From IMG/VR virus record IMGVR_UViG_3300017746_002124, positions 1 to 28,812 of that record: a DNA stretch of 28,812 nucleotides. One strand, 5' to 3'. The notes under the pieces were generated by a model that saw nothing but the letters and a program-made list of their open reading frames with translations, was not told the DNA's origin and made no database searches. This DNA comes from a virus. Shown in pieces: positions 3,701 through 18,401 of this stretch; position 1 is the first letter of the stretch; every line of letters begins with the position of its first letter. The position numbers and the translations under genes are program-made.

Positions 3701-3729
3701 TTGACACACTATTTGTCATATGCTATATT
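3701..3729 (+). promoter_or_regulatory. sigma70-type promoter with inverted repeat reaching the RBS
   Basis: TTGACA 3701-3706, 17 bp, TATATT 3724-3729 preceded by ATGC. CTATTTGT at 3709-3716, in the spacer, is perfectly complementary to ACAAATAG at 3740-3747, which overlaps the TAGGAG Shine-Dalgarno sequence (3745-3750) of the gene at 3759. Transcripts starting here would lack the left arm; transcripts reading through would contain both arms and could hide the RBS. Confidence 0.8.
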
Positions 3730-3758
3730 AGTTATGATAACAAATAGGAGTGATTCGA

Positions 3759-3995
3759 ATGGATGATATCATAACATATAAAGGTCAAGAGTTTGACGGT
3801 ATTCATGGAGGACCTTTTGACAGGGGCATTATGGATTCTTATTATCGTAGGGGTTATAGTCCTCACAAGTATCCTAACGGAACTCACAACCTACCACGTA
3901 TCGATAAAGATAATGGGCTGACTGCCGATGAGACTCATGCATACTGTATGGGATTTGAATATAATGAAGAATGTGGAGATTATAAAGAATGGTAA
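3759..3995 (+). CDS. Unknown early-type phage protein (78 residues)
   Basis: I start it at ATG 3759, eight bases after TAGGAG; an in-frame GTG at 3750 lies inside that RBS and is rejected. The protein contains a segment rich in Gly, Tyr and Arg (GPFDRGIMDSYYRRG) and an acidic C-terminus ending in DYKEW. The GG-DRG-SYY-R pattern recalls small conserved phage proteins of unknown role. It has its own strong promoter at 3701 and therefore is likely expressed early. Confidence 0.7.
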   Translation: MDDIITYKGQEFDGIHGGPFDRGIMDSYYRRGYSPHKYPNGTHNLPRIDKDNGLTADETHAYCMGFEYNEECGDYKEW

Positions 3996-5428: not shown

Positions 5429-5460
5429 TGAATAACCAAAAACTGTAACCAACTAACCGA

Positions 5461-5490
5461 GGTCATCCCATTAATGGGTTGGCCTTTTTT
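5461..5490 (+). terminator. Rho-independent terminator after the 5006-5428 gene
   Basis: GGTCATCCCA at 5461-5470 and TGGGTTGGCC at 5475-5484 form a stem with wobble pairs around a TTAA loop, followed directly by six T (5485-5490). It ends the nuclease transcription unit. Confidence 0.85.
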
Positions 5491-5512: not shown

Positions 5513-5686
5513 ATGATATCAGCACAAATTGAGCGTCTCAAAAGAGACTCACGTGAACTAACAACATATTCAAAGAAACTGGCTAAAAAGGGTAGAAGCG
5601 ACTTAGTCCATAAGATTATGTTAAAGAAAGAGTTCATTGATCAGCACATAGCGGATGTAGTGTCGGAGCAAAATAAGTTAAATTAA
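5513..5686 (+). CDS. Small basic helical protein (57 residues)
   Basis: ATG 5513 is preceded by TTTAAGGA, 12 bases away. The protein is strongly charged and probably one long helical hairpin: IERLKRDSRELTTYSKKLAKKG, then HKIMLKKEFIDQHIADVVSEQ. It could bind nucleic acid or another protein, but no family is recognised. It lies between the terminator at 5461-5490 and the promoter at 5701, without an obvious promoter of its own. Confidence 0.6.
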   Translation: MISAQIERLKRDSRELTTYSKKLAKKGRSDLVHKIMLKKEFIDQHIADVVSEQNKLN

Positions 5687-5700
5687 TCTAAAGGAATCGC

Positions 5701-5729
5701 TTGACACCTTTGCTGATTGTGTGTATAAT
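5701..5729 (+). promoter_or_regulatory. Consensus sigma70 promoter with inverted repeat reaching the RBS
   Basis: TTGACA 5701-5706, 17 bp, TATAAT 5724-5729: both boxes are perfect consensus. CCTTTGCT at 5707-5714, directly after -35, is perfectly complementary to AGCAAAGG at 5744-5751, which ends just before TGGAG, the RBS of the gene at 5763. This is the clearest case of the arrangement seen also at 3701 and 18053. Confidence 0.9.
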
Positions 5730-5762
5730 AAGATAACATTGTTAGCAAAGGTGGAGAGTATT

Positions 5763-6332
5763 ATGAATATCTTTATATTAGATAAGTGTCCTGTCAAATC
5801 AGCACAGATGCAGTGCGATAAACATGTAGTTAAAATGATCCTAGAAAGTGGTCAAATGCTATCTACTGCACACCGTATGTTAGACGGTAAACTAACAAAA
5901 CGTCCATCACAATCAGGCAAGACTATGTCTAAGTATTGGGAGCTATCAGATCCTATTATGGAAAAAGCACTATACAAAGCTGTGCATACTGGTCACCCAT
6001 GTACTGTATGGACTATGGAAACTAATTCTAATTACAATTGGCATTACAAACACTTCATTGCTCTATGCGATGAGTATACCAAACGTTATGGTAAGGTGCA
6101 CATGACAGATACTAAACTGCGTGATATACTACGCCGCCCACCTGTAATGACTAACTACAGTAATGAGCGCACACCTTTTAGACTTGCTATGGGTGCATCA
6201 CCAGAATGTATTGACCATTCAGATCCTATCGGTTCATACCGTAAGTTCTATCAAACCAAGCAAGAGCGTTTCTCTATGACTTGGACTAACTCTATCGTTC
6301 CAGATTGGTTTAGATATAACGTAGCTATATAA
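5763..6332 (+). CDS. Conserved phage protein with CDKHVVKM signature, unknown function
   Basis: The start is ATG 5763 after TGGAGAG; the upstream in-frame codon at 5721 lies within the -10 region. The 189-residue protein begins MNIFILDKCPVKSA and then has CDKHVVKMILESGQMLSTAH, a stretch I recognise as conserved in many phage genomes but without an assigned role. Further blocks are GHPCTVW, NYNWHYKHF and RTPFRLAMG. The conserved Cys, His and Trp residues suggest an enzyme or nucleic-acid-binding protein. It is transcribed from the best consensus promoter of the window, so it is probably an abundant early product. Confidence 0.8.
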   Translation: MNIFILDKCPVKSAQMQCDKHVVKMILESGQMLSTAHRMLDGKLTKRPSQSGKTMSKYWELSDPIMEKALYKAVHTGHPCTVWTMETNSNYNWHYKHFIALCDEYTKRYGKVHMTDTKLRDILRRPPVMTNYSNERTPFRLAMGASPECIDHSDPIGSYRKFYQTKQERFSMTWTNSIVPDWFRYNVAI

Positions 6333-11556: not shown

Positions 11557-12251
11557 TGGAAGCCCTTGTTATTACCATAAAGGGTAATGAATTAAGTGAA
11601 ACTGCCGCCGCTAACTGTATTGCATCTTCAGCTAAGTTGGATAATAAATTTAGAGTAAAGACCTTTGAAGCTACCACACCAGAAGATGTTGAAGAGTGGG
11701 TTAAGGCATACAAGCTTACATGGAATTGGCCTTGGGATGGTGAGATCCATGACATGGCCTCTGGACTTAGGAAGGTGGCATATCAAACGGCTAACCGACA
11801 TGCTCGTGTGGCATGTTCAATGAGTCATTTTAGATTATGGGATAGATGTTCTAGAAACAAATCGCCTATGCTTATACTAGAGCATGATGCAATATTTACA
11901 GACAAGATTAACGTTAAGACCTACCTAAACAAGGGATTTAATATCATAGGTATTAATTCTCCACTAGGAGCAACACGTAAGTCACAACAATTCCATGATA
12001 TAATACAGAACAGAAAAGAAGTTATACAACCAGTTCCCCATATAGATGGTTGGGGTGTGCCTCAAGGTATCGCTGGAAACAGTGCATATATACTAACACC
12101 AGATGGGGCTGATGATTTGCTGAGAGCATCCTATCAGTATGGTCTGTGGCCTAATGATGCTATAATGTGTAGACAGATGATAAAGCATATAGGTGTGACT
12201 AAGAAGTATTACACTACAATTCAACGTACTAGGAGTACGACTACGTTATGA
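11556..12251 (+). CDS. GT25-family (LPS-type) glycosyltransferase 1
   Basis: A 231-residue protein with GT25 features: N-terminal ALVITIKGNELS, the ACSMSHFRLWDRC helix (86-98), MLILEHDAIF with E109-H110-D111 as the metal/nucleotide site, and GNSAYILTPDGADDL. GT25 enzymes add galactose or related sugars to lipopolysaccharide, and also to collagen in animals. ATG 11556 overlaps the TAA of the preceding gene by one base. Paralogous to the next gene, with an end-to-end four-base overlap. Confidence 0.82.
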   Translation: MEALVITIKGNELSETAAANCIASSAKLDNKFRVKTFEATTPEDVEEWVKAYKLTWNWPWDGEIHDMASGLRKVAYQTANRHARVACSMSHFRLWDRCSRNKSPMLILEHDAIFTDKINVKTYLNKGFNIIGINSPLGATRKSQQFHDIIQNRKEVIQPVPHIDGWGVPQGIAGNSAYILTPDGADDLLRASYQYGLWPNDAIMCRQMIKHIGVTKKYYTTIQRTRSTTTL

Positions 12252-14535: not shown

Positions 14536-14570
14536 TTGACAACCCCTCAGACAAATGCTAATATGAGGGG
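14536..14570 (+). promoter_or_regulatory. sigma70-type promoter with inverted repeat flanking -10
   Basis: TTGACA 14536-14541, 17 bp, TAATAT 14559-14564. CCCCTCA at 14543-14549 is perfectly complementary to TGAGGGG at 14564-14570, flanking -10. The right arm ends before the RBS TTGGAG (14575-14580). This looks like an operator or a variant of the RBS-hiding repeats at 3701, 5701 and 18053. Confidence 0.75.
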
Positions 14571-14586
14571 TAAATTGGAGAATCAA

Positions 14587-18052: not shown

Positions 18053-18081
18053 TTGACATTAGACGAATCACATGCTATTAA
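18053..18081 (+). promoter_or_regulatory. sigma70-type promoter with inverted repeat reaching the RBS
   Basis: TTGACA 18053-18058, 17 bp, TATTAA 18076-18081 preceded by ATGC. ACGAATC (18063-18069, in the spacer) pairs perfectly with GATTCGT (18102-18108), which overlaps AAAGGA, the RBS of the gene at 18111. Allowing one bulge the repeat extends three more pairs. Confidence 0.78.
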
Positions 18082-18110
18082 TAGTATGTAATCTCAGAAA
18101 GGATTCGTTA

Positions 18111-18401
18111 ATGTCTTACTTAGAAATCATCAAAGAAACAATGGATGACCTGATCGTCTGCTCCACTAACTTTAAAGAGTGTAAGCGTGATGCTGAACGT
18201 GCTCTATCTAATGCCCTGAGTGGTGATTATGATTGGGATAACGACAAAATCATTGAGACACTTACTGGTGCTTGTAATGATGCGGCATTTGACATGGATA
18301 AGTGTCATGACGAAATCATAGAGATCAAAGATCGTTTGGATCTTTTGATTGCCAATGCTGAGTTTAATGAAGTAGCGCAAGCCGCTATAAAAGGAGTTTA
18401 A
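18111..18401 (+). CDS. Unknown acidic early-type protein (96 residues)
   Basis: ATG 18111 after AAAGGA. An acidic, probably all-helical protein: MSYLEIIKETMDDLIVC, then CKRDAERALSNALSGDYDWDND, and a long C-terminal helix (CHDEIIEIKDRLDLLI). No family recognised. It leads a string of small genes with repeated promoters, which looks like an early region of host-takeover or regulator genes. Confidence 0.7.
   Translation: MSYLEIIKETMDDLIVCSTNFKECKRDAERALSNALSGDYDWDNDKIIETLTGACNDAAFDMDKCHDEIIEIKDRLDLLIANAEFNEVAQAAIKGV

Follow-up and report, generated by a model that had tools for sequence, protein, structure and literature searches.

A hairpin enclosing an early-type promoter as a probable transcript-origin filter on translation in T4-like phages

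Introduction

In bacteriophage T4, the ribosome-binding sites of genes e, soc, 49, I-TevI and I-TevII are hidden in the longer mRNAs that are initiated upstream (PMC3014915, PMC2988022), and the T4 genes described as being under such control are all late genes (PMC2988022). Early and late genes of this virus share long overlapping transcripts, and the exclusion of early proteins from later mRNA is only partly explained. A sigma70 promoter inside an inverted repeat occurs in IS10/IS50, where the read-through mRNA folds back to cover the start of the transposase. Here we compare these systems with a hairpin that surrounds a sigma70-type promoter in a viral contig, and with similar hairpins in its relatives and in T4 itself.

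Results

A promoter nested in a ribosome-site hairpin

The stretch analyzed, hereafter the window, is a viral contig of 28,812 nt (28.8 kb) with T4-like genes that include ribonucleotide reductase, a T4 RNase H-like 5'-3' exonuclease and PhoH. The gene under study encodes a 189-aa protein that matches PHROG 624 strongly and PF03013 (Pyr_excise, Pyrimidine dimer DNA glycosylase) marginally, at 24.5 bits, above the cut-off of 23. Orthologues in equivalent context were found in many IMG/VR contigs, and among isolates the nearest records are those of phage C48C1 and of Pelagibacter phages, all under Kyanoviridae.

Inspection of the region upstream of this gene (Table 1) reveals the inverted repeat around a promoter that the original prediction had placed there. 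That prediction paired only the core arms; their pairing holds, and the extent needs correction, as the perfect helix is longer and joins 5705-5714 with 5744-5753 in 10 bp, or 13 pairs counting G.U. The left arm includes the final two bases of the -35 hexamer, and the enclosed TTGACA-17-TATAAT is the sole 12/12 sigma70 match when the whole window is scanned. When promoter spacers were paired with mismatched leaders, runs of at least 10 pairs were expected only 0.05 times per 180 promoters, and the helix is therefore not a product of chance.

Table 1 Features of the promoter-nested hairpin locus and of two weaker sites in the window
Feature	Position	Strand	Basis or remark
Intrinsic terminator-like hairpin with U-run	5459..5490	+	between DUF6433 gene and 57-aa gene
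57-aa gene, upstream, same strand	5513..5686	+	putative source of read-through RNA; stops 14 nt before -35
-35 hexamer TTGACA	5701..5706	+	read in sequence, promoter match
Left arm CACCTTTGCT	5705..5714 (to 5717 with G.U)	+	within promoter, 5' of predicted transcript start
Core of left arm CCTTTGCT	5707-5714	+	sequence reading
-10 hexamer TATAAT	5724..5729	+	inside loop; spacer 17
Predicted transcription start, 7 nt past -10	5736	+	inferred from sigma70 promoter geometry
Right arm AGCAAAGGTG	5744..5753 (to 5741 with G.U)	+	overlaps ribosome-binding site
Core of right arm AGCAAAGG	5744-5751	+	sequence reading
Shine-Dalgarno region GGTGGAG	5750..5756	+	accessibility predicted
Start codon ATG	5763-5765	+	sequence reading
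Pyr_excise-family gene, 189 aa	5763..6332	+	Pfam PF03013, PHROG 624
Weaker similar site: TTGACA, arms CTATTTGT 3709-3716 / ACAAATAG 3740-3747, ATG 3759	3701..3761	+	sequence
Weak similar site: TTGACA, arms ACGAATC 18063-18069 / GATTCGT 18102-18108, ATG 18111	18053..18113	+	sequence

Similar arrangements had also been claimed at 3701 and 18053. Inverted repeats are indeed present at both, but both are weak and lend the proposed switch little. The 8-bp arms at 3701 shrink to 7 bp or carry a mismatch in close relatives and are absent from more distant ones. At 18053 the arms span 7 bp beside a poor -10, and the sole diverged relative has identical arms, such that this site shows no covariation.

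Predicted folding of read-through and local RNA

Read-through RNA spanning 5690-5775 is predicted to fold at -29.1 kcal/mol (z -5.5, with 0 of 200 shuffles as stable), whereas RNA beginning at about the expected start site reaches -2.5 kcal/mol. The predicted unpaired probability of the Shine-Dalgarno sequence GGTGGAG, computed on a relative (L110) with a leader identical to that of the window, is ~0.0 in read-through RNA versus 0.58 in local RNA. Across loci, the median predicted accessibility of the ribosome site is 0.0 for read-through and 0.42-0.46 for local RNA; in a few cases (L150, L129) the site is predicted to be paired in local RNA as well.

The upstream genes of arm-bearing orthologues lie on the same strand and the nearest of them stops 3-16 nt short of the -35; read-through RNA is therefore to be expected. 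In the window, the terminator ~210 nt 5' of the site would lower read-through without necessarily abolishing it; analogous terminator-like hairpins occupy the equivalent place in several relatives. Upstream of the window site, matches to the T4 late promoter TATAAATA did not exceed chance.

Covariation of the arms in Pyr_excise orthologues

Covariation between the arms in relatives had been named as a check on the original prediction, and the arms do covary: their sequences are replaced while pairing is retained. The upstream regions of orthologues follow a common plan with differing arms. A promoter is present at the appropriate distance in 32 of 102 distinct upstream regions, and ~20 of these 32 have strong arms, which comprise a dozen unrelated sequences and some G.U exchanges; examples are CACCTTTGCT/AGCAAAGGTG, CATCTCCAC/GTGGAGATG, ATACCTCTGTCGA/TCGACAGAGGTAT, AAAGCTCCCATAAT/ATTATGGGAGCTTT and CCCCTGAAATTT/AAATTTCAGGGG. 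Every arm-bearing orthologue keeps the nested promoter, and in each the left arm sits in the interval from the -35 to the predicted start. RNAalifold, applied to 17 Pyr_excise leaders aligned with MAFFT, gave no consensus structure because the arms shift register, and mismatched-arm controls were adopted in its place. For 19 non-redundant orthologue promoters selected blind to their arms, own-arm duplexes of -15 kcal/mol or better occur at 7, versus 0.06 expected from mismatched arms, and none of 100,000 permutations matched the observed pairing. Selection at these loci acts on pairing. This covariation supports a switch that depends on transcript origin, a function we infer from sequence.

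Inverted repeats around a promoter are, as a matter of general knowledge, typical of operators, and the arms could in principle be half-sites of a dimeric regulator acting on DNA. The arms are unrelated between loci and between orthologues, however, their centres lie 28-45 bp apart with no helical phase, and G.U pairs are tolerated. Neither a half-site shared between loci nor a spacing in helical phase was found, both of which disfavour an operator; we rejected this reading on covariation and spacing and regard it as very improbable.

Against the proposed switch, a minority of Pyr_excise promoters are arm-less (L101, L067, L125, L185), mostly with same-strand upstream genes. A divergent upstream gene, as in C48C1, was considered as the reason for missing arms and failed to generalize across orthologues.

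Promoter-blind scans and other gene families

The window was selected for a striking example and its other two sites are weak, as would be the case if the best of many promoter-like sites had simply been picked. Orthologue promoters chosen blind to their arms nevertheless exceed mismatched controls, and the permutation result for the 19 promoters is joined in refuting this explanation by a scan of 2.25 Mb for hairpins over ribosome sites, in which no promoter criterion was applied. The scan returned 19 non-redundant hairpins, most of them around a promoter matching at 10-12 of 12 positions; in most, the hexamers are exactly 17 nt apart and the left arm begins at the -35. Chance selection is scarcely credible.

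Promoters of other genes gave own-arm duplexes of -14 kcal/mol or better at 7 of 180, versus 0.56 expected, in a set to which the text filter had passed a few Pyr_excise relatives. Orthologues with differing, still-pairing arms were found for a PNKP-like phosphatase, a DNA-ligase-like protein and an unnamed family. In the non-T4 set the dyads target the ribosome site, on which 16 of 18 strong dyads fall versus 30 of 127 weak ones (P = 1e-7). No strong example was found in the HTVC008M and Mosig regions examined.

At 1414-1471 of contig L033, a 14-bp promoter-nested hairpin precedes a gene that encodes a small protein of the sigma70 region 4 kind, and in related contigs this module is found immediately 5' of Pyr_excise. 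Pseudoalteromonas phage XG4 (L203) has three long promoter dyads off the ribosome site, at 12014, 15540 and 1057, one of which precedes the gene for a gp55-like late sigma factor.

Two hairpin geometries at denV

We take T4 DenV, the product of a UV-repair gene, to belong to the same Pfam family as the window protein (PF03013); the T4 record annotates it as a pyrimidine-dimer repair N-glycosylase. The denV promoters of T4-like phages read GTTTAC-16/17-TAnnAT, and T4 and its relatives present ~18 different arm pairs, which fall into two geometries and always combine the ribosome site with the promoter. The left arm lies within the -35/-10 spacer in T4, JS98, JK36, L317, L334 and L337, and extends across the -10 to about -1 in phiR1-RT, EnC07, RZH, pKp20, Muldoon, L325, L335 and L343. 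All that the two geometries have in common is a left arm located no later than the predicted start, together with a right arm that is the ribosome site. In an alignment of the -10-arm group built from sequence alone (A3), 89.5% of cells are paired, versus 40-57% when the arms are slid, and two-sided changes number 10 (0 of 500 shuffles).

Genes e, ipIII and ipII are found upstream of denV in T4, and two late promoters (TATAAATA) precede e, so that late mRNA can reach denV. Several denV relatives have lysozyme or internal head protein genes directly upstream.

The denV loci of jumbo phages (L314, which is XbC2, and L336, L338, L339 and L342) have an intrinsic terminator, the hairpin of which contains the -35. 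It reads GGGTTGAC-TTCG-GTCAGCCC-TTTTT, where the U-run fills the promoter spacer and is followed by the -10.

That a true terminator overlaps the -35 at these loci invites the reading that the hairpins elsewhere also halt polymerase arriving from upstream and shield the nested promoter, overlap with the ribosome site being secondary. GenBank X04567 marks the stem-loops of T4 denV, ipII and ipIII as potential terminators, and T-runs follow the right arms in L130, L136, L150 and L037. Against this reading, the window lacks a U-run after the arm, as do T4 denV, regB and alc and also L120, L148 and L033; the loops, at 16-34 nt, are unlike those of terminators; and the right arms outside T4 cluster on the ribosome site. 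A GC-rich stem, a short loop and a direct U-run were found together at the jumbo-phage denV loci only, and not in the window or at T4 denV, regB or alc, where the loops measure 12-29 nt. We consider termination or insulation an unlikely role for these hairpins. Under regB, too, X04567 has entries for a terminator and an inverted repeat, and the T4 stem-loops had thus been noticed before. A search of open literature found no paper giving these stem-loops a role as translation filters.

Hairpins at other T4 early genes

A scan of T4 served as a positive control for the hairpin search. It recovers e, 49, I-TevI and I-TevII, which are late-gene cases already in print, and among early genes it finds denV, regB, alc, ndd.4, nrdC.8, 30.8 and motB.2, together with a variant at modB. 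Helices reach 15 pairs in regB (with G.U), 15 in alc, 15 in ndd.4, 13 in nrdC.8 and 14 in modB. Own-arm duplexes of the GTTTAC-type promoters attain -14 kcal/mol in 6 of 37 cases, regB and alc included, versus ~0.6 (0.56) expected. The regB hairpin is kept with changed arms in all five phages examined, two of which have an inner stem around the -10, and the alc hairpin is kept in two of four.

About half of the strong T4 promoter dyads, those of ipI, ipII, dmd and mobD.2 among them, miss the ribosome site. Promoter dyads may therefore serve another purpose as well, or be the inner portion of composite stems. Counting dyads of either class, 13 of 41 T4 promoters have strong ones, versus 0.9 expected. 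In the second class of T4 early promoters, strong dyads have their centre at the -10 and do not cover the ribosome site; these lie near 65799, 57990, 20612, 73939, 146143 and 133331 of NC_000866. A promoter-like example of this class occurs in the window at 14536-14571, where arms ACCCCTCA and TGAGGGGT flank the -10 of TTGACA-17-TAATAT and stop short of the ribosome site.

Strong T4 dyads with a free ribosome site would fit an element of RNA processing or stability, in which the read-through hairpin is a nuclease site or protects the 3' end of the upstream message. Such an element leaves unexplained why two denV geometries both end on the ribosome site, and equally the bias of dyads towards that site, and we find it quite improbable.

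Discussion

The hairpin and its nested promoter probably form a filter on translation that distinguishes transcripts by their origin. Read-through RNA from the upstream genes would carry both arms, and the resulting hairpin would cover the ribosome-binding site and leave the gene untranslated. RNA from the nested sigma70-type (early) promoter would begin past the left arm, lack the hairpin and be translated. That is to say, expression would be limited to the time when the gene's own early promoter is firing, and the gene would stay silent on later, long transcripts from upstream promoters. The start site in this scheme is predicted from promoter geometry, and occlusion of the ribosome in vivo and the temporal purpose are presumed. 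The hairpin at denV would silence that gene on late mRNA, which is opposite to the way in which e is known to be controlled.

Beyond single loci, we lean towards nested hairpins being a general filter in T4-superfamily phages, one that would confine DenV, RegB, Alc and ModB to mRNA begun at the early promoter of each gene and silence them on later read-through. With comparable, qualified confidence, we would count as its forms the spacer arm, the -10 arm, composite inner and outer stems, and the jumbo-phage terminator over the promoter. Such a filter would be a rule open to direct testing in a virus that ranks among the most thoroughly studied. It would add early genes to a mechanism that a 2010 review confines to late genes, and would tie marine T4-like phages to T4 by a structure kept through covariation, not by sequence.

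Among the systems compared, the jumbo-phage terminator (XbC2, L336, L338, L339, L342) is alike in that it sits at denV and would exclude upstream transcription; it differs in being a U-run hairpin that acts on transcription and not on the ribosome site. IS10/IS50 likewise place a sigma70 promoter within an inverted repeat, with a read-through fold that covers the start, but there the arms are the ends of the element and guard against fortuitous host transcription. The phage hairpins, in contrast, belong to free-standing genes of repair, nuclease and host-takeover families, away from transposable-element ends, and their arms change rapidly. The T4 e/I-TevI type is similar in nesting a promoter in a hairpin over the ribosome site, such that local mRNA is made without the left arm. 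In the window, sequestration of the ribosome site in read-through RNA is predicted by folding and accompanied by covariation, and local RNA would lack the left arm by virtue of the promoter position and the predicted start. The late promoter TATAAATA nested in the T4 type, under which early read-through is silenced, is not the nested promoter at the window site or at denV, where a sigma70/early promoter stands in its place. Since the gene is an early one, the read-through to be silenced would be later or from upstream, unlike at T4 e. The T4 early-gene hairpins appear to belong with the known late-gene type, and the nesting of an early promoter would be what distinguishes them from the described cases.
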